From contig NZ_JABUXV010000012.1 of NCBI RefSeq assembly GCF_014897705.1, positions 62,001 through 126,000 on the forward strand: a stretch of DNA of 64,000 bases. The letters run 5' to 3'. The position numbers and the translations under genes are program-made. Shown in pieces: positions 210 through 56,341 of the stretch. Each line of letters starts with the position of its first letter. Position 1 is the stretch's first letter. The stretch is from Brachybacterium sp. FME24 (GTDB lineage: Bacteria > Actinomycetota > Actinomycetes > Actinomycetales > Dermabacteraceae). The notes under the pieces are model-generated. The model ran no database searches and had not been told where the DNA came from. It saw nothing but the letters and a program-made list of their open reading frames with translations.

Positions 210-1223
210 GTGCGCGACCACTCCACGCCGTTCGTCGACGAGCCGGCCCTCGACCCGGCGCTGCTGAGGACGCTCGCGGCCGCTGGTCTGCCGGCGACCG
301 GGCGCTTTCATCTCAAGGCCGGCTGGGTCAGCCGCGCGTGGGTCGGCGACGACTGCGTCGTCCGACTGAACACCGACGAACGTTTCCGCGATGCCTATCG
401 CCACGAAGCGGCAGTCGTCCGCCTGCTCGCCGGCAGCGAGGTCCCCCACGCCCGGCACCTCGCCCACGGCGACGGCCCGGACGGGCCCTGGTACATCTCC
501 GAACGCCTGCCCGGCCGAACCCTGTACGACGCATGGCCGGCGGCGGACCCGCACACGCGCCACGCAATGATCGAAAGCCTCGGCTCTGCATTGCGCGCGC
601 TTCACCGCGTTCCTGTCCCAGCCGGCCTGCTGCCACCCTGGCTGGCCGACGCACTGGCCGACGCGCTCGCCGGCAAGCCGTGGCCTGCGTTCCATCCACC
701 CGTCGTGAGTGCGGTGCCTCAGCTGGTCGAGGCTGCTCGGCGACGGCCCGGTCATGACCCGCGCCTGCTCGCGGACGTCGCCGAGTGGTTCCAGGAGCGG
801 CTGGCGCTGTTCGCCGCCGACGAACCCGTCCTCGTCCATGGCGATCTGCATGGATCCAACGTGATGGTCGACCAAGGACGCGTCACCGGTCTGATCGACT
901 TCGCGGAGGCGTCGGCTCAGTCGGCGGATGTCGAGCTCGATACCATCCTGCGCTGGTGCGCGAAAGCGCGCGAGTACCCACCCACTCCCCACGAGCAGGG
1001 GCTCGACGACGCCACCCTCACCGAGGTTCCCGGATGGCTGCGCGGAGAGTATCCGGAGCTGTTCGAGCGCGAGAATCTGCGCGAGCGGTTGGACGTGTAC
1101 GACATGCACGAGGCGCTCGCGCTCTCCGCGCACCATCCCCGACCTGACATCCGCGACGCGGCACGGGGCCGCATCGCTCGCCTGCTCGCCGGCCACAACC
1201 ATCTCGACCGACTCGTCTGGTAG
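210..1223 (+). CDS. Aminoglycoside phosphotransferase-fold kinase
   Basis: This 337-residue cytoplasmic protein is a member of the APH/choline-kinase-like family, which phosphorylates small hydroxylated molecules with ATP. The catalytic loop HGDLHGSN (His210, Asp212, Asn217) and the metal-binding IDF (Asp230) are both present, preceded by an N-lobe with the typical RHEAAVVRLL helix. The GTG start at 210 gives the full family length. The true substrate cannot be told from sequence; most chromosomal members are not antibiotic-resistance enzymes. It is convergent with the DUF4282 gene at 1260, leaving only 36 bases between the stops. Confidence 0.85.
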   Translation: MRDHSTPFVDEPALDPALLRTLAAAGLPATGRFHLKAGWVSRAWVGDDCVVRLNTDERFRDAYRHEAAVVRLLAGSEVPHARHLAHGDGPDGPWYISERLPGRTLYDAWPAADPHTRHAMIESLGSALRALHRVPVPAGLLPPWLADALADALAGKPWPAFHPPVVSAVPQLVEAARRRPGHDPRLLADVAEWFQERLALFAADEPVLVHGDLHGSNVMVDQGRVTGLIDFAEASAQSADVELDTILRWCAKAREYPPTPHEQGLDDATLTEVPGWLRGEYPELFERENLRERLDVYDMHEALALSAHHPRPDIRDAARGRIARLLAGHNHLDRLVW

Positions 1224-9155: not shown

Positions 9156-10229
9156 ATGCAGAGCGAGCAGAGCGCCCTTCCCGCCGAGGCCATCTCGGGT
9201 CCCCGCCGCCGTCTCTCCCGCATGGCGCAGATCCTCGGACTGCTGGCGCTGTGCGGGATCGGGGCAGAGCTGCTCTCGGCGTACTCCGACTCCACGGGGA
9301 ACCCGGGCGCCATCGCCTTCGCACTGGTCTTCTTCGCCGCGCTCTACGGGGCACCGGCGCTGCTCGCTCGGGACCTCGCGCGTCGGCTCGGTTGGGGCTG
9401 GCCGAGCCTGCTGGCGATGTGCGCTGCTCTCGGTGTGGTGCAGGCCTGCCTGATCGACCAGTCGCTGTTCAGCGCCGACTACGGCGGGTACGCGGGCTGG
9501 AAGGAGAGCCGCGAGCCGACCCTCATCGCGGCGCTGGGAATCAGCGGCGACAACGCGTACTCCTTCCTCGTAGGGCACATGATCTTCAGCTTCGCAGCTC
9601 CGGTCGCCCTGGCGGAAGCGTGGGCGCCGGCGCGAGTGCGCACACCGTGGCTCGGCCGGCTCGGCACGATCCTCGCGGGGCTCGCGTACCTCGCGGCGGC
9701 GGCGTTGATCGCCGGTGATCCGGAGTCGCGGTCCGGGAGCATGCCCCAGCTGCTGGGCGCGACGGGAGTCGTCCTCGCCCTGCTGCTGCTCGCCGTGGTG
9801 ACAGGCCGATACCGGGCGCAGGTCCGCGCCGACGACGCTGCAGGGCGGACTGCGCCCCCGATCGTGGCGGTGATCGCAGCGGGCCTCGTGGCCGGGCTGA
9901 TCCCGGACTTCATGCCACCGACCTGGCCCGGAGTGGTCGGTGCGGCCACGGTCACATCGGTACTCGGGATCGCGATGCTGCTCGCCAGCAGACGGTGGAC
10001 GTGGACCCCGCGTCACGCAGCGGCCGTGGGGCTGGGGCTCCTCCTCGAGCGAGGGCTGCTGGCGTTCACGTACTACCCGCTGCTCGGCGAGGTGGGCGCG
10101 GGAGCCAAATACGCCCACAATGCCGTCATGCTGCTCGCGGTGCTCCTGGCCGGAGGGCTGGCACTGGTCCCGCGAGATCGGCGAGCCAGCCGACCCGGCG
10201 CGGGCGGGGAATCGGTCTCGGCCGCCTGA
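9156..10229 (+). CDS. Multi-pass integral membrane protein, unknown function
   Basis: A 357-residue protein with roughly nine hydrophobic segments (for example AQILGLLALCGIGAELLSAY, AIAFALVFFAALYGAPALLA, LLGATGVVLALLLLAVVTG and VMLLAVLLAGGLALV). Short hydrophilic ends and an acidic, glycine-containing loop with DYGGYAGWKESREP are visible. I do not recognise the family. The gene stands alone between the DauR-like regulator and the ROK regulator. TAGCGT lies only six bases before the ATG, so the message may be nearly leaderless. A hairpin follows the stop. Confidence 0.75.
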   Translation: MQSEQSALPAEAISGPRRRLSRMAQILGLLALCGIGAELLSAYSDSTGNPGAIAFALVFFAALYGAPALLARDLARRLGWGWPSLLAMCAALGVVQACLIDQSLFSADYGGYAGWKESREPTLIAALGISGDNAYSFLVGHMIFSFAAPVALAEAWAPARVRTPWLGRLGTILAGLAYLAAAALIAGDPESRSGSMPQLLGATGVVLALLLLAVVTGRYRAQVRADDAAGRTAPPIVAVIAAGLVAGLIPDFMPPTWPGVVGAATVTSVLGIAMLLASRRWTWTPRHAAAVGLGLLLERGLLAFTYYPLLGEVGAGAKYAHNAVMLLAVLLAGGLALVPRDRRASRPGAGGESVSAA

Positions 10230-10375: not shown

Positions 10376-10404
10376 TTGTCGGAAAAATTCCTCGTCTCTA
10401 GCGT
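10376..10404 (+). promoter_or_regulatory. Promoter of the ROK/sulfatase operon, probably leaderless
   Basis: TTGTCG (10376-10381), a 17-bp spacer, then TAGCGT (10399-10404). The ATG at 10412 falls where transcription should begin, so the ROK message is predicted to be leaderless, which fits the absence of a ribosome site. Confidence 0.65.
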
Positions 10405-10411
10405 TGCCCCC

Positions 10412-11533
10412 ATGAACGATGACATCGGTGTTCTCGCGCTGACGCGGCGAACCCACGAGAAGCGGGTCCTGGCCGCGCTCAGGGTGCGCGGGGCGTCCAG
10501 TCGCGCGCAGCTCGCGGAATCGACGCGACTGTCGCGGACCACGCTCTCGGTGATCGTGGCCGACCTCATCGCCCGCGGAGCCGTCGTCGTCGCGGACACC
10601 GACGCTTCTCAGCGCCGGGGGAGCGGCCGACCCGCGGCTCTTCTCGCCCTCGACCCCGGCTCGGCGCAGTTCCTCGGCTTCGACTTCGGGCACCGGCGCG
10701 TTGCCATCGCGATCGCCGGAGCGAGCCATGAGGTCGTCGCCCAGGGCGAGGCCGAGTACGACGAGCGCAGCGGCTGGCGTGAGCGCGCCGAGACCGCTGT
10801 GGACCTCGCCTGGTCCATGGGCGCGGAGCACCGGCTCCACTTCGGAGCGATCCAGGGAGTGGCAGCCGGTGTGACCGGCCGCAGCCGTGATACTGCCGAG
10901 CCCGTCGTCGCCGGAGAGCTGGCGGCCGCCTTCGGCATCGACGTGATCGTCGACAACAACGTCCGCTTCGCCGGGCTCGCCGAGGCCAGCGAGCGGGGCA
11001 GCCGATTCTCGAACGCGATCTACCTCCATCTCAGCGACGGGGTCGGAGGAGCCATGGTGGTCGGCGGTCGTCTCTACCAAGGAGCCGACCGGTTCGCCGG
11101 CGAGTTCGGGCACGTCGTCGTCGACCCGGACGGCGCGCTCTGCCGATGCGGGAAGCGCGGATGCCTCGAGACGATCTCGCGGATCGGGGCGCTCGAGGGC
11201 GCCTCGCCCGCGGACCTCGACGAAGTCGCGAGGGACGTGGGCCGGGTCCTGGGAGCGGCGGCGATGGTCCTGAACCCGGATCTCATCGTGATCGGCGGAC
11301 GCGTGCCCACGGAGCATCCCGGCCTCCTCGCCCGGATCGAGGTCGCGGTGGAGGAGAGCACAGCGGGGTCGGCCGGCTCGCGGCCCGAGGTCCGCGCAGC
11401 CGTCTGCGGGCCGTTCGCCGGCGCGCTCGGCTCCCTCATCGCGGCGATCCACGAGAGCCCGCTCCTGGCGGGATACGACGGCACGGTCTTCGAGACCGCG
11501 CAGTACCCCAGCATCGGAAAGGCCACAGGATGA
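10412..11533 (+). CDS. ROK-family transcriptional repressor
   Basis: A 373-residue ROK protein combining an N-terminal winged helix (residues ~15-60, SSRAQLAESTRLSRTTLSVIVADL) with a sugar-kinase-like sensor domain. The zinc motif CRCGKRGC is present (Cys244, Cys246, Cys251). Asp181 in DNNVRFAGLAE occupies the kinase catalytic position. It is the first gene of a run continuing through two sulfatases, two glycosidases and an ABC importer, and its stop overlaps the first sulfatase start (ATGA). It is therefore likely the pathway's own repressor, released by a sugar. ATG at 10412 is chosen because the upstream frame is non-coding and the promoter ends just ahead of it. Confidence 0.9.
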   Translation: MNDDIGVLALTRRTHEKRVLAALRVRGASSRAQLAESTRLSRTTLSVIVADLIARGAVVVADTDASQRRGSGRPAALLALDPGSAQFLGFDFGHRRVAIAIAGASHEVVAQGEAEYDERSGWRERAETAVDLAWSMGAEHRLHFGAIQGVAAGVTGRSRDTAEPVVAGELAAAFGIDVIVDNNVRFAGLAEASERGSRFSNAIYLHLSDGVGGAMVVGGRLYQGADRFAGEFGHVVVDPDGALCRCGKRGCLETISRIGALEGASPADLDEVARDVGRVLGAAAMVLNPDLIVIGGRVPTEHPGLLARIEVAVEESTAGSAGSRPEVRAAVCGPFAGALGSLIAAIHESPLLAGYDGTVFETAQYPSIGKATG

Positions 11534-13032
11534 CGACACCGAACATCCTCTTCCTCATGACGGACCAGCACCGGGTCGACACGCTCGGCGCCTACGGCAA
11601 CGCGTGCGCGAAGACGCCGGTGATCGACGAGATCGCCCGCACCGGCACCCGGTTCGACCGCTGGTACACGCCGACGGCGATCTGCACACCGGCCCGCGCG
11701 AGCCTGCTCACGGGCATGGCGCCGTTCCGGCACAGGGTGCTCGCCAACCACGAGCGCAACGTCGGGTACATCGAGGATCTCGAGGAAGGGATGTTCACCT
11801 TCCCGGAGGCATTGCAGGAGGCGGGGTACAGCACCGCCCTGGTCGGCAAGTGGCATGCGGGCTACGAGCGCACGGCACGCAGCTTCGGATTCGACGGCCC
11901 GGAACTTCCCGGACAGGCATGGCACAACCCCGTCGAGGCACAGGACTATCTCGACTACCTCGCCGAGAACGATCTGCCGCCCTACGAGATCAGTGAACGG
12001 ATCCGCGGCACCCTGCCCAACGGCGGACCGGGCAACCTCCTCGCGGCCCGCCTGCACCAGCCGCTGGAGGCGACGTTCGAGCACTACCTCGCGACGCGGG
12101 CGATCGAGCTGCTCGAACGCTTCGCCGCTGAGCGGGAGAACGACGACACCCCCTTCTACCTGCAGCTGAACTTCTTCGGCCCGCACCTGCCGTACATCCT
12201 CCCCGACGAGTACTTCGACATGTTCGATGTGGCGGACGTCGATCTGCCCGCCTCCATCTCGGAGACCTTCGAGGGCAAACCCCCCGTGCAGGCGAACTAT
12301 TCGGCGCACTGGGCGTTCGACACCATGCCGCTGGAGACTTCGCGCAAGCTCATCGCGATCTACTGGGGCTACGTCGCGATGATCGACCGCGAGATGGGAC
12401 GCGTCATGGACGCGATGGAACGCCTGGGCCTGGTCGAGGACACGGCAGTCTTCGTCACCGCCGACCACGGCGAGTTCACCGGATCGCACCGGCTGCACGA
12501 CAAGGGCCCGGCCATGTATGAGGACATCTACCGCACCGCGGGGATCCTCCGGGTCCCCGGGCAGGAGCCCGGCATCGTGCGGGAGGAGTTCGTGAGCCTG
12601 CTGGACTGCACCGCGACGATCCTGGACCTGGCAGGGGCCGATCCCGCCCGAGCGGTCGATTCGCGCAGCCTGCTGCCTCTCACCACACGCGATGAGGTGC
12701 CGTGGCAGGACGACATCGTGTGCGAGTACCACGGGCATCACTTCCCGTACCCGCAGCGCATGCTCCGCAACGATCGGTACAAGCTCGTCGTGAACCCGGA
12801 GTCGGTCAACGAGCTCTACGACCTCGCCTCGGACCCGGACGAGGTGCGAAACAGGTACGAGGACCCGGACCTTCTCGAGGTCCGCCGGCGGATGTCCCGG
12901 CGCCTCTACGAGCTCCTGGTCGCACGAGGGGACAACTTCTTCCACTGGATGACCTCGATGTACGACATCGGCGAGGTGTCCTACGACCCGATGATGAGCG
13001 GGCTCGACGAGGCGAGCTACCCCACGAGCTGA
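11530..13032 (+). CDS. Type I sulfatase, cytoplasmic (first copy)
   Basis: A 500-residue alkaline-phosphatase-superfamily sulfatase that hydrolyses a sulfate ester. The formylglycine signature CTPAR is at 52-56, with Cys52 the residue to be oxidised. Metal ligands are in NILFLMTDQHR (Asp12, Gln13) and VTADHGEFTGSH. There is no signal peptide, so it should act in the cytoplasm on imported sulfated sugars. It is coupled to the ROK gene by a 4-base overlap and followed 40 bases later by a GH51 arabinofuranosidase. A formylglycine-generating enzyme, needed for activity, is not in this window. Confidence 0.92.
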   Translation: MTTPNILFLMTDQHRVDTLGAYGNACAKTPVIDEIARTGTRFDRWYTPTAICTPARASLLTGMAPFRHRVLANHERNVGYIEDLEEGMFTFPEALQEAGYSTALVGKWHAGYERTARSFGFDGPELPGQAWHNPVEAQDYLDYLAENDLPPYEISERIRGTLPNGGPGNLLAARLHQPLEATFEHYLATRAIELLERFAAERENDDTPFYLQLNFFGPHLPYILPDEYFDMFDVADVDLPASISETFEGKPPVQANYSAHWAFDTMPLETSRKLIAIYWGYVAMIDREMGRVMDAMERLGLVEDTAVFVTADHGEFTGSHRLHDKGPAMYEDIYRTAGILRVPGQEPGIVREEFVSLLDCTATILDLAGADPARAVDSRSLLPLTTRDEVPWQDDIVCEYHGHHFPYPQRMLRNDRYKLVVNPESVNELYDLASDPDEVRNRYEDPDLLEVRRRMSRRLYELLVARGDNFFHWMTSMYDIGEVSYDPMMSGLDEASYPTS

Positions 13033-13035
13033 TCC

Positions 13036-13050
13036 GCGCGGGCCCCGCGC
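13036..13050. repeat. Intercistronic palindrome between sulfatase and GH51 gene
   Basis: GCGCGGG-C-CCCGCGC, a perfect inverted repeat, fills most of the 40-base gap just before the AAGGAGG of the GH51 gene. Possible RNA processing or attenuation element. Confidence 0.5.
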
Positions 13051-13072
13051 ACCACTGCAAGGAGGACGTCGC

Positions 13073-14701
13073 ATGACGGCACAGGCAACCATCACGATCT
13101 CGACCAGCGAGCGCGCGGAGGTCGACCGGAACGTCTACGGTCACTTCCTCGAGTCCGCGTTCTTCGGCAACATCGAAGGCGGAGTCTTCGACGAGGGGTC
13201 GGCGCTGTCCGTGACGGGACAGGGCGCCCTGGACGGGTGCCGTCTGGATGTCATCGAGGCATGCCGCGAGCTCGGCCTGCCCGTCGTGCGGTGGCCGGGC
13301 GGGAACTTCACCTCGGCGTACTGGTGGCGGGACGGGGCGGGCCCCCGCGACGAGCGCCCGCGGCGCCTGGAGCTCGCCTGGGGGTCGGAGGAGTCGAACC
13401 GCTTCGGGACGCCGGAGTTCCTCGCCTGGATCGAGGCCGTCGGGACCGACGCAGCGCCGACGGCGGCCTACCTGCACCACGGGGCGCGCAGCGTCGACGA
13501 CGCCGTGCGCTGGGTGGAGTACACCAACTACGCGGGCCGCACCGAGATGTCGGCGCTCCGCGCCGCCGACGGGCACCCGGATCCGTACGACGTGCTGTGG
13601 TGGGGCGTCGGCAACGAGATCTACGGCCCGTGGCAGATGGGTCACCGCAGCGTCGAGCGCTACGTCGAGGACGCCCGTGAGCACCTCCACTTCATGCGTC
13701 TGGTGGACAGCAGGCTGAAATTCATCGCCTGCGGCTGGGAGCGCGAGGAGTACACGGAGAAGCTCATCTCGGGGCTCGGCGACCGGGTCGACGCCGTCTC
13801 GCTGCACCTGTACGGCCTCGATCATCACCTCACGGACCCGAGCGAGTCGGAGTTCGACGACATCGTCGCGCAGGCCGTCTACTTCGAGCAGACGATCGCG
13901 GAGTACGCCGACGAGATCGCCTTCGTCGCGGGCAGAGCGCACCTCGACAGCGCACCGACGATCGCGATGGACGAGTGGAACAACCGCCACCTGGAATCCG
14001 CCGAGCTCAGCGAACCCGTCCCCGCGGCGGACGGCGGATTCGAACCCCATGGGACCGGGAGGATCGAGCACCGCAAGAGGGTCAACCGGCACAGCCCCCG
14101 CACCCTCGCGGACGCGCTCATGTACTCCGGGGTCTTCCATGCGATCCACCGAGCCGCCGGCCACGAGGTGCCGGTGACGATGGCCAACGCCGTCAACCTC
14201 CTCAACGCCAACGGCATCATGCAGGTGCGCCCGGAGGGCGTGATCCGCACGCCCCTGTTCCACATCTGGCGTCTCTACCAGAACCTGTTCCAGCCGATCG
14301 CGGTGCGCGCGGACGTCACCGCTCCCGCGACATGGCGACGTCTGCGCGCAGGAGCGGCACGTCAGGACGAGCGCGGGTATCCGCGCAGCACCCGCCCGGC
14401 GGCGATCAGCCTGCTCGACATCAGTGCCTCCACATCCCGCGACGGGCGCACGCTGACGGTCGCAGCGATCAACCGCTCCGCGACGGACCACCTCACGGCA
14501 CACATCGTGCGGGAGGCGGGAGGTCTCCCCGACGTCGCGACGTGCCACGACCTCGGCGCCGACGACATGGACCTCTTCCAGGCCAATTCGCTGAGCGACC
14601 CGGACGCCTGCACGCTGCGCGAGCGCGGCGAGGTGACGCTGCGCGACGGCGCGTACACCTTTCCCGCCCACAGCGTCACGCTGCTGACGTTCGCCCTCTG
14701 A
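13073..14701 (+). CDS. GH51 alpha-L-arabinofuranosidase
   Basis: A 542-residue intracellular glycosidase that removes terminal alpha-L-arabinofuranosyl units from oligosaccharides. The GH51 fold is clear: YGHFLESAFFGNIEGGVFD and VRWPGGNFTSAYWWRDG at the N-terminus, acid/base Glu182 in WWGVGNEIYGPWQ, nucleophile Glu301 in IAMDEWNNRH, and a C-terminal beta-sandwich ending in PAHSVTLLTFAL. No signal peptide is present. A strong AAGGAGG precedes the ATG. It lies between a sulfatase and a secreted GH43 enzyme, indicating that the transported ligand contains arabinose. Confidence 0.93.
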   Translation: MTAQATITISTSERAEVDRNVYGHFLESAFFGNIEGGVFDEGSALSVTGQGALDGCRLDVIEACRELGLPVVRWPGGNFTSAYWWRDGAGPRDERPRRLELAWGSEESNRFGTPEFLAWIEAVGTDAAPTAAYLHHGARSVDDAVRWVEYTNYAGRTEMSALRAADGHPDPYDVLWWGVGNEIYGPWQMGHRSVERYVEDAREHLHFMRLVDSRLKFIACGWEREEYTEKLISGLGDRVDAVSLHLYGLDHHLTDPSESEFDDIVAQAVYFEQTIAEYADEIAFVAGRAHLDSAPTIAMDEWNNRHLESAELSEPVPAADGGFEPHGTGRIEHRKRVNRHSPRTLADALMYSGVFHAIHRAAGHEVPVTMANAVNLLNANGIMQVRPEGVIRTPLFHIWRLYQNLFQPIAVRADVTAPATWRRLRAGAARQDERGYPRSTRPAAISLLDISASTSRDGRTLTVAAINRSATDHLTAHIVREAGGLPDVATCHDLGADDMDLFQANSLSDPDACTLRERGEVTLRDGAYTFPAHSVTLLTFAL

Positions 14702-14742
14702 CCGACCCGAAGGACCATCGACGCGACGAGGAGGTCGCCCGC

Positions 14743-17097
14743 ATGTCCGCACACCCGCTCCACGGCCCCCGAAGCACGAGGCGCCGGCTGCTGATCACCG
14801 CCCCGGTGATGGCGCTGGCCGTCACCGCCGGGGTCACCACCACGAGGAGGGCAGCCATGGCCGATGACGACGTCGAGCCCGAAGCGCCCACATACACGAA
14901 CCCCGTCATGACCGGCGTGACCGAGAACTTCGCGGACCCCACGATCCTCCGCGGGCGCGACGGATACTGGTACGCCTACGCCACCAACGGTCCGCGGTTC
15001 CCCGGGGACGAGCGCCAGCTCATGATGATCACCCGGTCCACGGACCTCATCGACTGGGAATGGGTGGGACCGGTCTTCACCCCGGAGACGATGCCGACCT
15101 ACGACGGCAAGCCCGCCGAGGCGAACCGCCAGTTCTGGGCACCCGAGATCGCCTACGTCGACGGGCAGTACGTCCTCTACTACTCCTACGTCGTCAACGA
15201 CCCCGATGATCCGTGGCGCGTGATCGGCGCGGCCACGGCCGACCACCCCGCGGGCCCGTGGACCGATACGGGCGAGGTCGTCGTCGGCAATGAGACCTGG
15301 GAGGTCCGACCCGGCGAGACCCAGGTCAGGAACAACATCGACCCTGATCTGCTCACCGCCCCCGACGGCACCAGGTACCTCTACTACGGGTCGGTGCAGG
15401 GCGGCGTGCGCGTCGTCCGGCTCGCGGACGACGGGCTGACGGCCGACGGCGACCCCGTCCAGCTGACCGATGCGCACCGCTACGAAGCGGCCTACGTCGT
15501 CCACCGGGACGGGTACTACTACCTCATGATGTCCGTGATCGGCGGCTGCTGCGCCGGCGCCGCATCGGGATACCCGGTCATGGTGGGGCGATCGGAGGAC
15601 CCGATGGGCCCGTTCGTCGACCGTGAGGGCCATGCGGTCGACGGGCCCACCGGCGGCGGCACCCCCGTGCTCTCCCCGAACGGCAACAGCTGGGTCAGCA
15701 CGGGGCACAACGCTGTCGCGACCGACCTGTCCGGGCAGGACTGGATCGTCAGCCACGCCATCGACCGCGCGAAGCCGTACGTGGAGGGACGCCAGAGTGC
15801 CCGTCATCTGGTGCTCACCCGGCTGGACTGGATCGACGGCTGGCCGGTCGGCAACGCCGGGAAGGGGATCCCTGATGGACCCGAGCCGGGGCCGCGCACC
15901 GCCGCCGTCCTCGCCGACGCGTTCGAAGCGGATCTCTCCGCCTGGGACGTGCCCGAGGGGTGGGAGACGCGCACGGAGGCCGCGGGCGGGTACGTCCACA
16001 CCTCGGGCACGCAGCGCCTCGTCTCGCACGCGGAGATCGCGGGAGACATCCGGCTGCGCGGGACGGTCCGCCTCGACCCCGGGGACGGCGGAAGAGCAGG
16101 GCTCGTCGCCGGGGCGGCCGGGCGCAACGGCGTCAGCGCCTGGATCGACCGAGCAGAGGGCCGGCTCGTCGTCGAGGGAGGCAAGGGCAGTCACCGGGTG
16201 CACGCCACCGCCCCGCTCCCGGCAGCCTTCGGCTACGACACCTGGCACGAGATCGAGATCGAGGTGACGGACGGCCGGATCCATGCCTCCGTGACCGAGT
16301 CGGGGCAGTACGACCCCGTCGCCGAGATCGAGGCCACGATCCACCCCGCCGCGGCGACAGGGCCGGTCGCGCTGGCGGCGGAGGGGACGGGCGCGGACTT
16401 CGACGACGTCACCGTCGCCCCGTACCGCGTCGTCGACGCCGAGATGGCGCCGACCCCTGAGGTCGGGGACTTCGCCCCGGACCTGTCGACGGACTTCGCG
16501 GACGGCATCGGACCGGAGTGGGACTGGACCGGTGACCCCGCAGGGACGGTGGACGGGGGCGACCTCAGCGTCGACATCACCTCGGCGACGCTCATCGACC
16601 GGCGCCGGCCCGACGAGGGAGAGGCCCCCTCGCTCCTCCTGCGCGATATGCCGGAGGGCGAATGGACCGCCGAGACGACCGTGACGATCCCCTTCGGCAG
16701 CTCCATCCCGTACGGCTGGCCGCAGGCCGGGCTGATCGCGTACGGGAACGACGACGACTGGGCCGCACTGGCGTACACGACCCGGGAATCTCGGCGCTTC
16801 ACGGCCTTCGCCCGCCAGGTGCCTCCGCCGGACGGGAGAGAGGCCGTCTACGGGCATGCAGCCCTCGGACCGAGCCGGGACACCATGCACCTGCGACTGC
16901 GCCACACCGTGGCGGACAACGGGGAGCACCTCTACCGCGCGGCGCTCAGCCTCGACGGCGAGCACTGGCAGTGGCACGGAACGCGGACGCTCCCGGCCGG
17001 GGAGCAGCCCCGGATCGGACTGTTCGCGATGGACCACGCCGAGGCGAACGATGAGCCGCTGACCGCCACGTTCGACGGCTTCCGCGTGTATCGCTGA
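14743..17097 (+). CDS. Secreted GH43-type arabinanase/xylosidase with two lectin-like domains
   Basis: A 784-residue exported enzyme. The N-terminus has a Tat-type signal (TRRRLLI followed by a hydrophobic stretch to about residue 40). The five-bladed propeller spans about 48-385 with the GH43 triad Asp65 (FADPT), Asp200 (NNIDPD) and Glu248 (RYEAAY). Two concanavalin-like domains follow (about 395-565 and 580-784). The second resembles the C-terminal domain of GH43 beta-xylosidases. It should cut extracellular arabinan- or xylan-like glycan and supply oligosaccharides to the ABC importer encoded next. ATG at 14743 has GAGGAGG upstream. Confidence 0.88.
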   Translation: MSAHPLHGPRSTRRRLLITAPVMALAVTAGVTTTRRAAMADDDVEPEAPTYTNPVMTGVTENFADPTILRGRDGYWYAYATNGPRFPGDERQLMMITRSTDLIDWEWVGPVFTPETMPTYDGKPAEANRQFWAPEIAYVDGQYVLYYSYVVNDPDDPWRVIGAATADHPAGPWTDTGEVVVGNETWEVRPGETQVRNNIDPDLLTAPDGTRYLYYGSVQGGVRVVRLADDGLTADGDPVQLTDAHRYEAAYVVHRDGYYYLMMSVIGGCCAGAASGYPVMVGRSEDPMGPFVDREGHAVDGPTGGGTPVLSPNGNSWVSTGHNAVATDLSGQDWIVSHAIDRAKPYVEGRQSARHLVLTRLDWIDGWPVGNAGKGIPDGPEPGPRTAAVLADAFEADLSAWDVPEGWETRTEAAGGYVHTSGTQRLVSHAEIAGDIRLRGTVRLDPGDGGRAGLVAGAAGRNGVSAWIDRAEGRLVVEGGKGSHRVHATAPLPAAFGYDTWHEIEIEVTDGRIHASVTESGQYDPVAEIEATIHPAAATGPVALAAEGTGADFDDVTVAPYRVVDAEMAPTPEVGDFAPDLSTDFADGIGPEWDWTGDPAGTVDGGDLSVDITSATLIDRRRPDEGEAPSLLLRDMPEGEWTAETTVTIPFGSSIPYGWPQAGLIAYGNDDDWAALAYTTRESRRFTAFARQVPPPDGREAVYGHAALGPSRDTMHLRLRHTVADNGEHLYRAALSLDGEHWQWHGTRTLPAGEQPRIGLFAMDHAEANDEPLTATFDGFRVYR

Positions 17098-17207
17098 CGC
17101 GGCGCTCCCGCATCCGATGACGTGGGCAGGAGTGACGACGATGTGCTTCCGCCCGGACTGCTTTCCGACGTACGTATGGCAACTACTCAATGAAGAGGAC
17201 TGGAACG

Positions 17208-18701
17208 ATGACTCAGAACACGCACGACGGGGCCGGTGCCGGAATCTCCCGCCGGAGACTCCTCGGGACCGCAGGACCCCTGTCGGTGGCAGGACTCCTC
17301 GCCGCCTGCACGGGCGGCGGTCAGAGCACCGAGGAGAGCGCACAGACCCGCGACGGCACCCTGCAGTGGTGGGACCAGTTCCGGCCGCTCACGGAGCTGT
17401 TCGAGAACGAGATGTTCGCTCCGTTCATGCAGGAGCACTCCGACCTCGCGATCGAGCGCCGCCAGCTGGACGCGGCGGATCTCGGGGAGGCGCTGCAGGT
17501 CGCCCGGCGCAGCGGCCAGATGCCCGATGTGCACTCCAGCGCCGGCCTCGGGACGACGCCCGCCGCGCTCATCAGCCAGGGCTGGTTCCAGCCGATCGGG
17601 GACCTGGTCGATGTCGACTCCCAGCCGATCGGCGAGTCGATCTACGAGGGGGTGCACCGCTTCGGCGGGGAGCTCTACTCGGTGCCGATGTTCTCCGGAC
17701 GCCTTCACGACGCGACCCCCTGGATCAACACGCAGCTGGCCGAACAGGCGGGCATCGATCCGGAGGTCTCGCCCGCGACCTGGGAGGACTTCCGGTCCGC
17801 GGTGAAGCAGATCGACGACGCCACCGACGCCAGCGGGATCGTGCTCCCCCAGAAGGACGCGCAGTTCCTCAACGGCTTCGTGACCTGGATCGCGCAGACC
17901 GCCGGGGCCCCGGGAGCGATCGACTGGACCACCGGTGAGTACCAGTTCGCGACCCCGCCGTTCCTCGATGCGATCGAGTACCTCAAGTCCTTCCAGGACG
18001 ACGGGATCATGCACCCCTCCTCGCCGTCGATGGGGCCCCGCGACGCCCGGGCGCGCTGGGCCGCGGGCGAGGTCGGGATCTACATGTGGGGTTCTTGGAT
18101 CATCGGAGGCCTCACCGTGGACGAGCCGGAATCCGTCGAGCGGGGCATCGCGGCATGGAGCATCCCACGGCAGGACTCCACGCGGCACAAGCTCACGCGC
18201 GGGCCCGGGGCGGGCCAGTTCTGGGTCAACGCCGATTCGGCCTATGCGCAGGAGGCCGCCGAGCTGCTCGCCCTCATGAGCGGCGAGGAGTTCCAGGCGA
18301 AGCTCGCCGGCGCGATGGATCAGCCGCCCGCTCTGCTGGACTCCGTGGAGGACGCCGACGTCCATCCCGCCTATGCGCGGATGGTCGAGCACTTCACCGA
18401 GGACGTGCGCATCGCTCCCGTCCCGGAATCGGGGAACCCCGCGACGTGGAAGGTCGTCGCGGAGATGACCGATATCCACCCGAACGTCGGCGAGATCGCC
18501 CAGGCCTACCTCTCGGGCGCCTCGGACTCTCTCCAGGCCGATCTCACCGCGTACTACGACGCGATGAACGTCGAGCGCGAGCGTGCCGTCGAGGCCATCG
18601 TCGCCGAGGGCGAGGGCGAGGACGTCGGCGTCGAGGACTGGGTCTTCGCGAACTGGGATCGCGAGTCCGACTACACGGCCGACGACTACGGGAGCAGGTG
18701 A
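17208..18701 (+). CDS. Carbohydrate ABC transporter substrate-binding lipoprotein
   Basis: A 497-residue solute-binding protein (extracellular family 1). A twin-arginine segment SRRRLLGTAGPL leads to the lipobox LLAAC, predicting a Tat-exported lipoprotein anchored at Cys26. The mature part opens with LQWWDQFRPL and contains the WAAGEVGIYMWGSW ligand-domain string typical of oligosaccharide binders. ATG at 17208 (MTQNTHDG) has AGAGGA at good spacing; the in-frame ATG at 17190 has none. Both permeases follow immediately. No ABC ATPase is encoded here, so a shared MsmK-type ATPase elsewhere is expected. Confidence 0.9.
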   Translation: MTQNTHDGAGAGISRRRLLGTAGPLSVAGLLAACTGGGQSTEESAQTRDGTLQWWDQFRPLTELFENEMFAPFMQEHSDLAIERRQLDAADLGEALQVARRSGQMPDVHSSAGLGTTPAALISQGWFQPIGDLVDVDSQPIGESIYEGVHRFGGELYSVPMFSGRLHDATPWINTQLAEQAGIDPEVSPATWEDFRSAVKQIDDATDASGIVLPQKDAQFLNGFVTWIAQTAGAPGAIDWTTGEYQFATPPFLDAIEYLKSFQDDGIMHPSSPSMGPRDARARWAAGEVGIYMWGSWIIGGLTVDEPESVERGIAAWSIPRQDSTRHKLTRGPGAGQFWVNADSAYAQEAAELLALMSGEEFQAKLAGAMDQPPALLDSVEDADVHPAYARMVEHFTEDVRIAPVPESGNPATWKVVAEMTDIHPNVGEIAQAYLSGASDSLQADLTAYYDAMNVERERAVEAIVAEGEGEDVGVEDWVFANWDRESDYTADDYGSR

Positions 18702-18704
18702 ACC

Positions 18705-19676
18705 ATGACGTTCGTGTCCTCCGACCTGACCCGGAGCGCCCGGGCCGACAGGCCGAGGACCAGGCAGTCCTTCGCCCGCAGGCTCCGCGAGCACTGGTGG
18801 GTCTACCTCTTCCTCCTGCCCACCCTCGTCGGCTACGGCCTGTACACGGTGTATCCGCTCCTGGCGAGCTGGGTGTACGCGTTCATGGACTGGCCCGGGT
18901 TCGCGCTCGCCGGGACCTTCAACGGCCTGGAGAACTTCGTCCAGCTGTGGAACGACCCGCTGTTCTGGAACGCGTTCGGGAAGTCGCTGCTGTTCCTCGT
19001 GGTCGCCATGCCGACCCGGGTGGTGCTGGCTCTCCTGCTCGCCCTCTGGCTCAACAGCCGGTCGACGCCGTTCAAGGGAGTCTTCCGGACGCTGTTCTTC
19101 CTCCCGGTCGTGACGACCGGCGCGATCATCGGCATCGTCTTCACCCTGCTGCTCGATGCGCAGGGGCCCATCAGCCTCGCGCTCGTCTGGGCGGGGATCA
19201 CCGACACTCCCGTCAACTTCGTCGCCCATCCCGATACCTCGCTGTGGTCCGGCGTCGCGGTATGGGTCTGGAAATGGTTGGGCATCACGATGATCTACTG
19301 GCTCGCCGCCCTGCAGACGGTCCCGACCGACGTGCACGAGGCCGCACAGCTCGACGGGGCCAGCGGGTGGCAGGAGTTCTGGCGGGTCACGCTTCCGCTG
19401 CTGATCCCCTTCCTCATCATCATCACGCTCATCGACACGGTCAGCGCTTTGAACGTCTTCGACCTCATGCAGACGATGACCGGCGGCGGCCCGGCGTTCT
19501 CCTCCGAGGTGATCGAGATCTTCATCTATCGCACGGCCTTCGCCGCCACGACACCGCAGCTCGGGTACGCCTCCGCTGCCGCCGTCCTGTTCGGTCTGCT
19601 CACCGTCGTCCTCGCGATCGTGCAGGCGTTCGGCATCCGCGCGGCCCGCGGCATGATGCCGGGAGGGAACTCATGA
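18705..19676 (+). CDS. Carbohydrate ABC transporter permease (MalF/UgpA type)
   Basis: A 323-residue inner-membrane permease with six predicted helices, beginning WWVYLFLLPTLVGYGLYTVYPLL. The EAA loop that docks the ATPase reads EAAQLDGASGWQEFWRVTLP. It begins three bases after the binding-protein stop and overlaps the next permease by four bases, so the three transport genes are one translational unit. The substrate is inferred from neighbours to be a sulfated or arabinose-containing oligosaccharide. Confidence 0.92.
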   Translation: MTFVSSDLTRSARADRPRTRQSFARRLREHWWVYLFLLPTLVGYGLYTVYPLLASWVYAFMDWPGFALAGTFNGLENFVQLWNDPLFWNAFGKSLLFLVVAMPTRVVLALLLALWLNSRSTPFKGVFRTLFFLPVVTTGAIIGIVFTLLLDAQGPISLALVWAGITDTPVNFVAHPDTSLWSGVAVWVWKWLGITMIYWLAALQTVPTDVHEAAQLDGASGWQEFWRVTLPLLIPFLIIITLIDTVSALNVFDLMQTMTGGGPAFSSEVIEIFIYRTAFAATTPQLGYASAAAVLFGLLTVVLAIVQAFGIRAARGMMPGGNS

Positions 19677-20569
19677 CGCTCACCGAGACCACCGTCCCCA
19701 CCACCCGCGAGGCGGGGAAGCGCGCACCGCGGCGCCGTCGGCGCCCCTGGAGCGTGCGGCGCATCGCCACCTTCGTGCTGCTCGTCGTGATGACGCTGCT
19801 GTGGGTCTACCCGTTCATCTGGCTGGTGTCGGCCTCGCTCAAGCAGTCCTCCGAGATCTTCGGCAGCGGGCTCACCCTGATTCCCGAGACCTTCCGATGG
19901 GAGAACTATGTGCGCGCCTGGACGGAGGCGGGGTTCGCGCAGTACTTCCTCAACACCGTGATCATCACGGTCGGCGCCATCGTGATCGTCGTGGTGCGCA
20001 GCGCGCTCGCCGGGTACGTGCTGGGGCGCTACAGCTTCCCGGGGAAGAAGATTCTCATCGGCATCTTCCTCGTGACGTTCTTCCTCCCGGAGGGATACAC
20101 GATCATCCCCATCACGCAGCTCACCGACCAGCTCGGTCTGCTGAACACGCATGCGGGCGTGATCCTCGGCCTCGGCGCCGGGGGTCACATCGCAGCGACA
20201 CTGCTGTACGCCGGGTTCTTCCGCGGCCTGCCGAAGGAGCTCGAGGAGAGCGCGAAGCTCGACGGGGCGGGTGCGTTCCGCACCTTCTTCCAGGTCATGC
20301 TGCCGCTCTCGTGGCCGATCACCGCCACGGTGGTGATACTGACCTTCCTGGCCGCGTGGAACGCCTACCTGCTGCCCCTGGTGTTCACGCTCAGCAACCC
20401 GGATCTGCAGACGCTCGCGATCGGCATGACCTCCTTCGTGGACGACTACGGGCAGGACTGGTCGGGGATGGCGGCGGGAGCCGTGATCTCGCTGGTCCCG
20501 GTGGTGATCGTGTTCGTCATCCTGCAGAAGAAGTTCGTCGACTCCATCGCCGGCGCGGTGAAGCAGTGA
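19673..20569 (+). CDS. Carbohydrate ABC transporter permease (MalG/UgpE type)
   Basis: A 298-residue permease. An Arg-rich cytoplasmic N-terminus (APRRRRRPWSVRR) precedes the six-helix core, with the EAA-type loop EESAKLDGAGAFRTFFQVMLP and the final helix VVIVFVILQKKFV. Its ATG overlaps the upstream permease stop and has GGAGGGAAC as ribosome site. The frame is open much further upstream, but that part is a shadow of the preceding genes. It pairs with the MalF-type permease to form the membrane channel. Confidence 0.92.
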   Translation: MTLTETTVPTTREAGKRAPRRRRRPWSVRRIATFVLLVVMTLLWVYPFIWLVSASLKQSSEIFGSGLTLIPETFRWENYVRAWTEAGFAQYFLNTVIITVGAIVIVVVRSALAGYVLGRYSFPGKKILIGIFLVTFFLPEGYTIIPITQLTDQLGLLNTHAGVILGLGAGGHIAATLLYAGFFRGLPKELEESAKLDGAGAFRTFFQVMLPLSWPITATVVILTFLAAWNAYLLPLVFTLSNPDLQTLAIGMTSFVDDYGQDWSGMAAGAVISLVPVVIVFVILQKKFVDSIAGAVKQ

Positions 20570-20589
20570 TCTCCACGGAAGGGAAGGCC

Positions 20590-22017
20590 ATGACTCAGCC
20601 GAACATCCTGCTCATCTCGACCGATCAGCAGCGCTTCGACATGGTGGCGGCGGCGGGGAACACGGCCGTGAGCACCCCGCACCTCGACCGGCTCGCCGCG
20701 CAGGGGGCACTGTTCGAGAACTGCTATGTGCAGAATCCGGTGTGCTCGCCGTCGCGCGCAAGCCTGATGACGAGCACATTCGTCTCGACCCATGGCCTCT
20801 ACGAGAACGGCGTCGACATCGACCCGGACACGCGGGTGTTCTCGAAGGACCTGGCCGAGGCCGGATACGACTGCGGTCTCGTGGGGAAGTTCCACCTCAG
20901 CTCCTGCTTCGACGGTCGCACCGAGCCACGCCTCGACGACGGATTCCGAGTCTTCCGATGGGCACACGACCCGTACCCCGGCTCCAGCGAGAACGCGTAT
21001 CACCGATGGCTGCGGTCGAGGCGGCCCGAGCTGTACGAGCGCGCGCTCGAAGACCGTCGCCTGTTCGACTCCATGCCGACCGAGGCGCACTACAGCCATT
21101 GGATCGCGGAGGAGACGATCTCCTTCCTGCGCACCGACCGCCGGACGGATCAGCCGTTCTTCTTCGTCTCCAACTTCTTCGATCCGCACCACGGCTTCGG
21201 GGCGCCGGAGGAGTACATCCGCCGCTACGACGACGTCGAGCTCCCACCGATCAACACCCGCGACGGGGAGCTCGACGACAAGCCGGAGATCCAGCGCCTC
21301 GCATCCCAGCGCCTCGGCGGCGGCCTGCCCAGCTACGTCGAGCACACCGAGCAGGAGCTGGACGAGGTCCGCACGGCCTACTACGCGATGGTGAGCCTCG
21401 TCGACGACGAGGTGGGGCGGATCCTCGACGCTCTCGACGAGGAAGGGCTCGCCGAGAACACGATCGTCGTGTTCACGAGCGACCACGGTGAGCTGCTCGG
21501 CGACCACCAGCTCCTGCGCAAGGGCCCCTTCATGTACGACTGCTCGGTGCGGGTGCCACTCATCGTCCGCTGGCCGGGCGTCGTCGCGGAGGGCACGCGA
21601 CGCACCGAGCTCGTGCAGTGGGTCGATCTCGCCCCCACCTTCCTCGACGTCGCGGGGCTCGACCGTCCACGGCAGATGCAGGGGGAGAGCCTGACCCCGC
21701 TGCTCCGCGGTGAGGAGGTCGACTGGCGGGACTGGGCGCTCAGCCAGTACCGCTCCGGCGGGGACCCGGCGAACCCGGGGGCGCACCTGACGATGCTTCG
21801 ACACGACAGATGGAAGCTCATCGCGCACCACGGACCCCCGGGCACTTCGAGGGACCGTGCGGGCGAGCTGTACGACCTCGAGTCGGACCCGGGGGAGCTC
21901 GAGAACCTGTGGGCCGACGGCGCGCATCTCGGCGTGCGCCTCGAGCTCACGGAGCGGATGCTCGACGTCCTCTCAGGCATCGAGGACCGCAGGAACCCGC
22001 AGCTCGCTCCCTGGTGA
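20590..22017 (+). CDS. Type I sulfatase, cytoplasmic (second copy)
   Basis: A 475-residue sulfatase distinct from the first. The formylglycine signature CSPSR is at 52-56 with Cys52; metal residues are in ILLISTDQQR and FTSDHGELLGDHQ. No export signal. ATG at 20590 follows GGAAGGGAAGG; a GTG overlapping the permease stop would add eight residues. Identity to the first sulfatase appears limited outside the motifs, so the two probably take different sulfate positions on the same imported glycan. It ends the operon; the convergent LysR gene starts its 3' end 48 bases away. Confidence 0.92.
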   Translation: MTQPNILLISTDQQRFDMVAAAGNTAVSTPHLDRLAAQGALFENCYVQNPVCSPSRASLMTSTFVSTHGLYENGVDIDPDTRVFSKDLAEAGYDCGLVGKFHLSSCFDGRTEPRLDDGFRVFRWAHDPYPGSSENAYHRWLRSRRPELYERALEDRRLFDSMPTEAHYSHWIAEETISFLRTDRRTDQPFFFVSNFFDPHHGFGAPEEYIRRYDDVELPPINTRDGELDDKPEIQRLASQRLGGGLPSYVEHTEQELDEVRTAYYAMVSLVDDEVGRILDALDEEGLAENTIVVFTSDHGELLGDHQLLRKGPFMYDCSVRVPLIVRWPGVVAEGTRRTELVQWVDLAPTFLDVAGLDRPRQMQGESLTPLLRGEEVDWRDWALSQYRSGGDPANPGAHLTMLRHDRWKLIAHHGPPGTSRDRAGELYDLESDPGELENLWADGAHLGVRLELTERMLDVLSGIEDRRNPQLAPW

Positions 22018-32329: not shown

Positions 32330-33547
32330 TTACCGCGCCCACCCCATCGAGTACGCCCACGCCATCACGCGCCGAGCCGGCGTGCCCAGCGCGACCCGCA
32401 CGGCAACGTCCCGAGCCACGGCAAGTGGCACCGGGAGCGGACGGCCCAGCGCCATGTTCGCGTGCGCGAGGAGCCGGGCGATCCGGGCGCGACTCCGGCA
32501 GGCCCGCTCGAACCGCTGCCAGGCGGGGTGGCTCCGCAGCGAGCCATGTTGTCGGTTCTCCGCCGCCTGCTGCAGGAGCGGCGCGAGGTCGAGGGCGTCC
32601 AGCCAGCCGAGCGTGATTCCCTGCCCGCCGATGGGGCTGATCTCGTGGGCGGCGTCGCCGATCAGTACGCAGCGCCCGGTGACCAGTGCCCGCGCCGTGC
32701 GACGACGCACCGTGAACGCGCTGATCATCGTGGCCGACGCAGCCTCGAGGCGTACTCCCGTGCGCGTGCGGACTATCTCTGCCAGGTCATCGAGGGAGGC
32801 GGCTGACGGGGGAGCGGGCCCGGTGTGCGCCACCCAGCGATTTCCGCCGCCCGGTAGCGGGAAGGACTCGACGACGCCGCCGGGTTCGAGATGGATGACG
32901 GCGTCGCGGTCGGCGCCTGCTGCGTCGGGTGCGGCGAAGTCGCCCATGAGGTAGGTGTCCGGATACTGCGCCCCGGTGGTGCCGACCCCGAGGAGATCGC
33001 GCACCCGGCTGCGGGCCCCGTCGGCGCCCACGACCACGCGGGCGCGAACCATGAGGGGCCCGGCGTCCGGGTCAGCGCCGAGGTCGGGCTGCGCGGTCAC
33101 CTCCACGCCATGGAGCGTCGCGCGCAGCTCCGTGACCTCCCAGCCGCGCCGCAGCGCTGCGGGGGCGAGCTCGATCAGGCGCTCCTCGAGCAGTTCCTCG
33201 GTGCGGCTCTGCGGAAGAGAGAGCACGAACGGCCGACGCGGCCACGCTCGCTCGAAGCTCAGGCGCCCGAGCTCCCGACCGCGGCTGCGCGCGCTCCCGC
33301 CCCGGATCCTCGCCCCGGCGGCCACCGCGGCGTCGGCCACACCCACCTCGTGCAGCGCGGCCACCGCCGGAGGGTGCAGACCGATCGCGCGGGAGTGGGC
33401 ACTGGGCGCGGCGCGGCGCTCCAGCACGAGCACATCCACGCCCAGGTCGGCCAGCAGGGTCGCGAGGAACAGTCCCGTCGGTCCGCCGCCGACGATCATC
33501 ACCTCGCAGGCACGCTCTGTGCGGTTCGCGGAGTTCGTCGGCGTCAT
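32330..33547 (-). CDS. FAD-dependent aromatic monooxygenase (SrsC-like)
   Basis: A 405-residue class A flavoprotein hydroxylase. FAD motifs are complete: VMIVGGGPTGLFLATLLADLG near the N-terminus, VVGADGARSRVRDLLG (the DG motif), and GRCVLIGDAAHEISPIGGQG (the GD motif). ATG at 33547 overlaps the methyltransferase stop as TGATG, so translation is coupled. With the type III PKS and methyltransferase upstream, the gene order matches the Streptomyces griseus srsABC operon, where SrsC hydroxylates an alkylresorcinol to a hydroquinone. The gene is convergent with fic at eight bases. Confidence 0.9.
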   Translation of the reverse strand: MTPTNSANRTERACEVMIVGGGPTGLFLATLLADLGVDVLVLERRAAPSAHSRAIGLHPPAVAALHEVGVADAAVAAGARIRGGSARSRGRELGRLSFERAWPRRPFVLSLPQSRTEELLEERLIELAPAALRRGWEVTELRATLHGVEVTAQPDLGADPDAGPLMVRARVVVGADGARSRVRDLLGVGTTGAQYPDTYLMGDFAAPDAAGADRDAVIHLEPGGVVESFPLPGGGNRWVAHTGPAPPSAASLDDLAEIVRTRTGVRLEAASATMISAFTVRRRTARALVTGRCVLIGDAAHEISPIGGQGITLGWLDALDLAPLLQQAAENRQHGSLRSHPAWQRFERACRSRARIARLLAHANMALGRPLPVPLAVARDVAVRVALGTPARRVMAWAYSMGWAR

Positions 33548-56179: not shown

Positions 56180-56221
56180 GCCCCGATGCTCTGAGGCCCA
56201 GTCCACTCAGACCCCGCCGCC

Positions 56222-56238
56222 CGGTGGCCGGACCACCG
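56222..56238. repeat. Small hairpin between isomerase and TRAP genes
   Basis: CGGTGG-CCGGA-CCACCG in the 162-base gap ahead of the TRAP binding-protein gene. No separate promoter is evident; perhaps a processing site. Confidence 0.35.
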
Positions 56239-56341
56239 CAACGGCCCTGAGCATGCCTCCCCGCCGCTCCGACGCTCCGTCGGCCCGGCCCACCGCGACC
56301 CCAGGGACTGCAACGACGCTCCCTGCCCCCAGGAGGAACCC

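Follow-up and report, generated by a model that had tools for sequence, protein, structure and literature searches.

The 64,000-nucleotide stretch of the Brachybacterium sp. FME24 genome analysed here (contig NZ_JABUXV010000012.1, positions 62,001 to 126,000; hereafter the window) carries a co-directional run of eight genes in which two formylglycine-type sulfatases, S1a and S1b, stand together with an alpha-L-arabinofuranosidase-like enzyme of glycoside hydrolase family 51 (GH51), an exported GH43 enzyme, the solute-binding protein (SBP) and two permeases of an ATP-binding cassette (ABC) importer, and a ROK-family regulator. Judging from these gene families we consider, with moderate confidence, that the run is an operon for the breakdown of a sulfated glycan that contains arabinose; the likeliest candidate is a sulfated arabinan or arabinogalactan in which alpha-L-arabinofuranose is 5-linked. 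The module is real and recurrent, occurring in varied form in scattered relatives, and the association of an ABC importer with GH51 and cytoplasmic sulfatases, pointed out in the initial annotation, is repeated in other actinomycete families with the compartments likewise conserved.

Organisation of the operon

Gene calling, sequence reading and Pfam/NCBIfam searches place the operon at 10412-22017 of the window, in a host assembly of 4.81 Mb, with the genes in this order:

10412..11533, + strand: ROK, a ROK-family transcriptional repressor with an N-terminal winged helix (PF00480, 100.5 bits, cut-off 22.9)
11530..13032, + strand: S1a, a formylglycine-type S1 sulfatase with CTPAR and GKWH motifs and without a signal peptide (PF00884, 153.3 bits)
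13073..14701, + strand: GH51, a subclade member, alpha-L-arabinofuranosidase-like and cytoplasmic, with GNE and DEW motifs (PF06964, 31.1 bits, cut-off 27)
14743..17097, + strand: GH43, endo-arabinanase-like and exported, with two C-terminal concanavalin-like modules (PF04616, 171.3 bits, cut-off 32.2)
17208..18701, + strand: SBP, a carbohydrate solute-binding protein (PF01547, 76.5 bits on a longer open reading frame)
18705..19676, + strand: ABC permease 1, CUT1/UgpA-like (PF00528, 57.7 bits; UgpA model 91.7 bits, under its cut-off of 335)
19673..20569, + strand: ABC permease 2 (gene call and sequence; orthologues at 70-79% identity in 10 module loci)
20590..22017, + strand: S1b, a formylglycine-type S1 sulfatase with CSPSR and GKFH motifs and without a signal peptide (PF00884, 169.6 bits on a longer open reading frame)

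All genes lie on the + strand, in line with the co-directional arrangement given in the initial annotation, whereas its count of nine genes was rejected in favour of the eight given by a second gene caller. The intergenic gaps are, in operon order, -4, 40, 41, 110, 3, -4 and 20 bases, the 110 bases lying before SBP, and because this spacing is short we infer a single transcript for all eight genes. No promoter-like site was found for the operon, and its three terminator-like sites, against a mean of 2.1 in shuffled sequence, are at chance level. The gene directly upstream (9156-10229) has no Pfam match and lies outside the operon start given by the initial annotation, and the start of S1b at 20590 is backed by the N termini of its orthologues. 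ROK, which scores 25.2 bits against MarR_2, under its cut-off of 27, is a probable sugar-responsive regulator of the operon. With a predicted regulator, exported depolymerase, importer and intracellular enzymes encoded together and conserved, the gene set has the make-up of a Gram-positive glycan utilisation cluster.

Linkage of sulfatases to the GH51 subclade

The GH51 of the operon belongs to a subclade sharing 28-32% identity (tblastn) with the ordinary GH51 enzymes of the genus. We read 22 loci of this subclade besides the window, in 20 genomes each used once (L047-L054, L057-L063, L088-L094), and searched by tblastn about 10 kb around each GH51 gene for orthologues of S1a (at least 56% identity) and S1b (at least 65%). 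An S1a orthologue was found near the GH51 gene in 14/22 loci and an S1b orthologue in 9/22; one or the other was present in 16/22 and both in 7/22, while any S1 gene above 60 bits was present in 18/22. By the same threshold, which may overlook highly diverged sulfatases in either locus set, an S1 gene lay near the ordinary GH51 of the genus in 0 of 22 control loci (L055, L056, L108-L127), one of which, L115, is a 10.4-kb contig. Fisher's test gave 3.6e-7 for 16/22 versus 0/22 and 1.4e-8 for 18/22, values that are overstated since the loci share ancestry.

Co-occurrence at the genome level was scored in 47 family genomes with identity cut-offs of 50% for S1a, 55% for S1b and 46% for GH51, rows at 35-42% being left out. 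S1a orthologues were present in all 12 genomes with GH51 and in 7/35 without it (one of these a partial match, in G044), S1b orthologues in 10/12 and 0/35, respectively. Close relatives of GH51 (at least 46%) occur, own genome included, in 12/47 family genomes, in 7 of 394 genomes sampled across the class and in a single one, the own genome, of 396 sampled across the phylum; at most three candidates per genome were scored in the class and phylum samples. The named-collection loci of the subclade are eight, namely five from Brachybacterium, two from Microlunatus and one from a Propionibacteriaceae metagenome-assembled genome. Since scattered genomes repeat the linkage and the control set differs clearly from them, named Brachybacterium and Microlunatus strains that carry the module offer a direct way to test its substrate.

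Most of the other loci hold part of the eight-gene set. All eight gene types are found in L093, from another family of the same order, as one co-directional run whose order (ROK, S1a, SBP, permease 1, permease 2, GH51, S1b, GH43) is unlike that of the window, with identities of 31% for ROK, 68% for GH43 and 78-79% for the permeases. S1a accompanies a block of SBP, both permeases, GH51 and S1b in L060, L061, L089, L090 and L092 (SBP not being called in L089), and the same block without S1b in L063, where the contig ends at GH51 so that genes beyond cannot be seen; in L091 SBP, the permeases and GH51 stand alone, and in L047 and L048 a ROK-S1a pair diverges from them. Smaller sets are ROK-S1a-GH51-S1b in L057 (S1b seen by tblastn), ROK-S1a and GH51 paired in L053 and L054 with the SBP/permease set farther off, S1a-GH51 in L051, GH51-S1b in L062, and GH51-S1b with GH2, GH97, ABC genes and GH43 in L094. 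ROK genes directly adjoin S1a also in L047, L048, L053, L054, L057, L093 and L102.

Five modules that lack GH43 are adjoined by a protein family with GALGANFN near the protein start (L047:2442-3620, L048:2455-3603, L090:1273-2355, L092:17344-18546 and, in L063, G015:C35:8109-9257), and genes similar in size stand at this place in L089 and L091. The two members scanned had no Pfam or NCBIfam match, and the family was found in 1/58 relatives searched (G015/L063) and not in the own genome. Its members share the motifs GNEPFIES and ATEFSL, and a model built from 2 sequences (mean pLDDT 56.8) had GH10 xylanase-type barrels at the head of its weak matches (E 4e-5 at best, TM 0.40). These motifs and the low-confidence barrel model suggest an undescribed clan-A-like glycosidase, which might possibly fill the slot of the outside depolymerase in GH43-lacking modules. 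In Microlunatus speluncae, the next gene after GH51 encodes a 704-residue protein without a Pfam or NCBIfam match (L048:12003-14117).

The two sulfatases and their maturation

Both S1a and S1b carry a sulfatase domain and the C-x-P-x-R formylglycine motif (CTPAR and CSPSR, respectively), and by Pfam, motif and solved relatives they are predicted to be S1-type sulfatases hydrolysing sulfate esters. The best solved relative of S1a is the marine exo-2S-iota-carrageenan S1 sulfatase 6pt4 (E 9.5e-51), which, like its relatives, belongs to the same sulfatase family and has the formylglycine motif at the same position; the 6pt4 enzyme is, however, distant and acts on another substrate, so that a transfer of specificity is unjustified. 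The best solved match of S1b, 4upl (E 1.6e-51), is named only 'sulfatase family protein'. The initial annotation had held both sulfatases to lack signal peptides, and their N termini, MTTPNILFLMTDQHR in S1a and MTQPNILLISTDQQR in S1b, bear this out by eye; nor was a signal peptide seen by eye in the N termini of 22 S1a, 12 S1b and 22 GH51 orthologues, one of the S1a gene calls being truncated at its start and uninformative in this respect.

A search of the genome for formylglycine-generating enzyme (FGE), which the initial annotation had proposed, found two PF03781 genes over the cut-off, both carrying GGSYLCH.SYCNRYR, which we take to be the active-site motif. In Bifidobacterium breve UCC2003 sulfatase maturation is reportedly due to a radical-SAM enzyme, whereas the genome of the operon has FGE-family genes. 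One of the two directly adjoins another, divergent sulfatase with a CMPAR motif (L064:10777-13607 of the own genome; G000:C20). A third sulfatase type, CVPART, was seen in the own genome (L076:7842-10696) and at L053:11684-14558. The gene after it has a signal-like start in both places, and the two mature parts open with similar residues; CVPART sulfatases also follow GH51 in L047 and precede it in L088.

In a FastTree of 56 sulfatases, which has no support values, the GH51-linked S1b proteins form one group, with a sister group (L101, L105-L107) that has its own ABC genes and no GH51 in the stretch. The S1a proteins fall into a single CTPAR family to which GH51 loci contribute most members, with L095-L100, L102 and L104 nested within it and L103 branching first. 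S1a as a GH51-only enzyme was rejected, as S1a orthologues occur in other contexts; one neighbour each was family-scanned in L095, L097 and L102, and for the remaining contexts gene order and start sequence were the guide. At L095:10798-13491 an S1a-type sulfatase shares its gene row with a ROK regulator, a sulfonate-type binding protein of the SsuA family and two further ABC-like genes, likely a sulfate-ester scavenging set whose pattern is repeated in L050, L096 and perhaps L061. In the S1b sister group, a regulator that seemingly joins a LacI-type repressor to an N-terminal IS630-like helix-turn-helix (L105:14142-16025) diverges from the row of S1b and ABC genes, and genes similar to it in size are present in L106 and L107.

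GH51, GH43 and the importer

The GH51 protein matches solved GH51 arabinofuranosidases with E values down to 3e-67 (4atw), and 16 of 17 solved relatives are named arabinofuranosidase or arabinosidase, the remaining one being MgGH51. PF22848 is matched at its cut-off. The homology extends over the catalytic barrel with its two catalytic glutamates in GNE and DEW motifs, which are kept in all full-length subclade members shown, and hydrolysis of arabinofuranosides is predicted. To find what distinguishes the subclade, residues of 21 loci and the window (L094 being left out for its length) were compared with 35 ordinary GH51 of the genus. R-H at window positions 305-306, after the nucleophile, is present in 22/22 subclade sequences, while at position 305 the ordinary enzymes have W in 17/35 and a gap in 13/35; at position 372, N in 21/22 subclade sequences stands against Q in 35/35. 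Other invariant basic residues of the subclade are also missing from the ordinary GH51 of the genus. Some differences are not unique to the subclade: R110 occurs too in Thermotoga-type solved relatives, though these have W at their 305 position. The nucleophile is by alignment E301, equivalent to E294 of the Geobacillus enzyme (PMC11036162). Since these two are aligned, window position 305 corresponds to Geobacillus position 298. The Trp there presumably lies near the substrate, and a basic residue at 305 could meet a sulfate.

From this we raise a bolder proposal, which we regard as tentative and on balance unlikely: the subclade would consist of dedicated sulfo-arabinofuranosidases in which R305-H306 and the other invariant basic residues bind the sulfate of an imported oligosaccharide, for example one of 2-O/3-O-sulfated alpha-1,5-L-arabinofuranan, S1a and S1b would be a matched position-specific pair, and a secreted clan-A-like glycosidase would replace GH43 in sister loci.

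The nearest solved relatives of GH43 are endo-alpha-1,5-L-arabinanases (E 1.4e-25), and its 122.3 bits against the AbnA model lie under the cut-off of 480, so the equivalog level is not reached. Of the Tat-exported GH43 with two lectin domains described in the initial annotation, the export and the overall layout stand: the N terminus is a twin-arginine-like leader with TRRRLL, which we take to be the twin-arginine motif, both GH43 orthologues have signal-like N termini, and two C-terminal concanavalin-like modules are present. Only one of these passes its Pfam cut-off, however (PF17851, 23.5 bits, just over 22.7), the other staying below it (PF06439, 20.9 bits, under 26.8). SBP has a twin-arginine and lipobox-like N terminus (LLAAC); its orthologues are 47-58% identical in 9 loci, and 8/9 of their gene calls show signal or lipobox features, the ninth being truncated at its start. 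SBP and the two permeases have the composition predicted for a CUT1 sugar ABC importer with a separate ATPase, and the one MalK-type ATPase match elsewhere in the genome (OB_MalK) could serve it. An L-arabinose isomerase gene (araA) is present in the genome.

Proposed pathway and substrate

In the route that we propose, whose substrate, reaction order, desulfated positions and inducer we infer, the exported GH43 would cut the glycan outside the cell into oligosaccharides, and the lipoprotein SBP and the two permeases, powered by an ATPase encoded elsewhere, would import these while still sulfated. In the cytoplasm the two FGE-activated sulfatases would strip sulfate from two different positions and GH51 would free L-arabinose for the ara pathway, with ROK repressing the operon until a product binds. 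That still-sulfated oligosaccharides are imported and then desulfated inside, as the initial annotation had it, is supported by the recurrent linkage, by the lack of signal peptides on S1a, S1b and GH51 orthologues and by the signals on GH43 orthologues. Such an operon would represent a selfish-uptake route in actinobacteria for a sulfated pentose glycan, with desulfation inside the cell, and its two sulfatases, GH51 subclade and binding protein would provide tools for reading and degrading sulfated arabinogalactans.

An arabinose-containing sulfated substrate, also put forward in the initial annotation, fits the GH43 and GH51 family relatives, whereas L-arabinofuranose as the sugar, a polymeric nature and an algal arabinan are putative; the module occurs also in Microlunatus. 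Beta-L-arabinopyranans are not expected to be cut by GH43 and GH51 enzymes. The green-seaweed arabinan named in that annotation is one option only, since most algal sulfated arabinans reviewed, those of Codium and Cladophorales, are mainly pyranosic beta-L-arabinans (PMC7550628). A polymer of Chaetomorpha linum, in contrast, contains 5-linked alpha-L-arabinofuranose sulfated at C-2 or C-3 plus 6-linked beta-D-galactose (PMC7550628), and a polymer of this type, which would fit GH43, GH51 and two sulfatases, is our best single guess. GH2 genes are present in the sister loci L088, L089 and L094 and a GH97 gene in L094; the closest NCBIfam models were beta-galactosidase and beta-glucuronidase for the two GH2 proteins scanned and alpha-galactosidase for GH97, all under cut-off, which would be compatible with galactose or glucuronic acid in the substrate.

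Counter-evidence and rival explanations

Several observations weigh against a sulfated arabinofuranose glycan as the substrate or against a fixed module for it. No S1 gene was found near GH51 in L049, L052 (little left flank), L058 and L091 (short right flank), and L059 and L088 have only distant S1 genes there; in G011 (L049) S1a and S1b lie about 28-32 kb off GH51, on either side of it, and in G013 (L058) S1b lies about 37 kb off, each on the same contig. GH43 is near GH51 in only 2/22 other loci (L093, L094) and was rejected as a conserved core part. GH51 scores 233.9 bits against the NCBIfam ArfA cut-off of 625, being related below equivalog level, and the NCBIfam equivalog cut-offs for arabinosidases are not reached; R305 and N372 are changes that probably lie near the sugar pocket, and because of them the recognition of plain L-arabinofuranose is not assured. 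The best PDB relative of SBP is CbpB (E 1.6e-11), by name no arabinoside binder, followed by weaker matches to an arabino-oligosaccharide binder (E 1.4e-7) and a sulfoquinovosyl-glycerol binder (E 5.8e-5), all too weak to assign a ligand. S1a orthologues also occur away from GH51, beside SsuA-like, sugar-porter and symporter genes, and even in L050 and L061 S1a ends a row with the gene sizes of the SsuABC-like row of L095 and groups with the L095 S1a in the tree, so that it may there be a neighbour of GH51 and no operon member; this assignment, from gene sizes and tree position, concerns 2 of the 14 S1a-linked loci. Judging from the other contexts, S1a enzymes can act on small sulfate esters that the cell has taken up; this accords with a role inside the cell and makes one fixed substrate less likely.

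Among the alternatives we give some weight, though as an improbable one, to a sulfated glycan whose main sugar or furanose is other than L-arabinofuranose, for instance beta-D-galactofuranose, or an arabinopyranose/galactose glycan that GH2/GH97-type enzymes of the sister loci would trim, with GH51 and GH43 shifted in specificity. R305, in place of the W or gap of most ordinary GH51, and N372, in place of their Q, fit this idea, as do the GH2 and GH97 genes beside the module and the mostly pyranosic nature of the algal sulfated arabinans reviewed (PMC7550628); the endo-alpha-1,5-L-arabinanases nearest to GH43 and the names of 16/17 solved GH51 relatives argue for arabinofuranose instead. A little less probable still is sulfur scavenging, in which small sulfated arabinosides would be imported mainly for sulfate and no polymer for carbon. 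This explanation gains from the S1a contexts of L050 and L061, which weaken the reading as a glycan operon, and from the neighbours that S1a has elsewhere: in L095 a gene of the SsuA family (207 bits, cut-off 163.5), with the pattern repeated in L050 and L096; in L097 a sugar-porter gene of the major facilitator superfamily (315.4 bits, cut-off 237.8), with start sequences resembling it in L098, L099 and L104; and in L102 a gene resembling metabolite/H+ symporters (378 bits, under the cut-off of 443). Intracellular sulfatases of Bifidobacterium breve are a precedent in sulfated-monosaccharide use (PMC7326374). However, an exported endo-type GH43 with a CUT1-type importer fits oligosaccharides taken from a polymer, and the combination of a glycosidase and a ROK repressor with the two sulfatases is in keeping with carbon use.

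That S1a and S1b hydrolyse phosphonate or phosphate esters, as other members of their superfamily do, is very unlikely. PehA-type and phosphonate monoester hydrolases are among their matches and share C-x-P-x-R, and for S1b the uninformatively named 4upl is followed by a named phosphonate hydrolase (2.5e-38); S1a, in turn, matches a named sugar sulfatase far better than named phosphonate hydrolases (9.5e-51 versus 1.8e-29). GKxH, a sulfatase feature that is replaced in phosphonate hydrolases, is kept in 22/22 S1a and 12/12 S1b orthologues, and FGE genes are present. We regard it as hardly credible that the genes are neighbours by chance, or that sulfatases have come to lie in an ordinary arabinan operon by accident: with 14 sulfatase matches in the genome, about 6% of positions would have one within about 10 kb by chance, yet an S1 orthologue near GH51 in 16/22 loci stands against none in the 22 control loci, and on this contrast chance neighbourhood was rejected.

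Comparison with known systems

Gram-positive arabinan systems combine a GH43 endo-arabinanase, an intracellular GH51 and an ABC importer. The operon resembles them in its predicted outside cutting, ABC uptake and inside GH51, and differs in adding two sulfatases and in having a GH51 of a separate subclade; it is apparently a so far undescribed form of a known type of sugar-scavenging system. Consistent with the remark in the initial annotation that no well-characterised actinobacterial system was known, none of this make-up turned up in the literature, in a search mostly outside subscription journals that is weak evidence of absence; within the same limits, nothing was found that joins sulfated arabinan, sulfatase and arabinofuranosidase, or Chaetomorpha with sulfatase and arabinofuranose.

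PUL13 of Bacteroides plebeius, which serves the use of sulfated arabinogalactan proteins, likewise has two sulfatase genes (BpS1_8 and BpS1_14) in an arabinogalactan-type locus, and desulfation by BpS1_8 precedes, and is needed for, GH43 action and the growth of another species (PMC8406133). Unlike the operon, PUL13 is a Bacteroides locus with SusC transporters, its desulfation-dependent enzyme is an exo-beta-1,3-galactanase, and GH51 does not occur as a word in the main text of the paper describing it (PMC8406133). The sulfatase clusters of Bifidobacterium breve UCC2003, which act on GlcNAc-6-sulfate, share with the operon an actinobacterial host, an intracellular sulfatase and the use of a sulfated sugar; their substrate, in contrast, is a mucin monosaccharide, and GH51 and GH43 are unmentioned in the relevant passage (PMC7326374).

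Other features of the window

Outside the operon, a type III polyketide synthase gene lies near an FAD-dependent monooxygenase-type gene at 32330-35471; perhaps these form a small cluster for a polyketide or pigment. At 51547-53420 a pair of genes encodes a two-part transketolase, and nearby, at 55349-57391, a gene for a xylose-isomerase-like barrel protein is followed by one for a DctP-type TRAP binding protein, with the transketolase pair another possible sugar or sugar-acid cluster.

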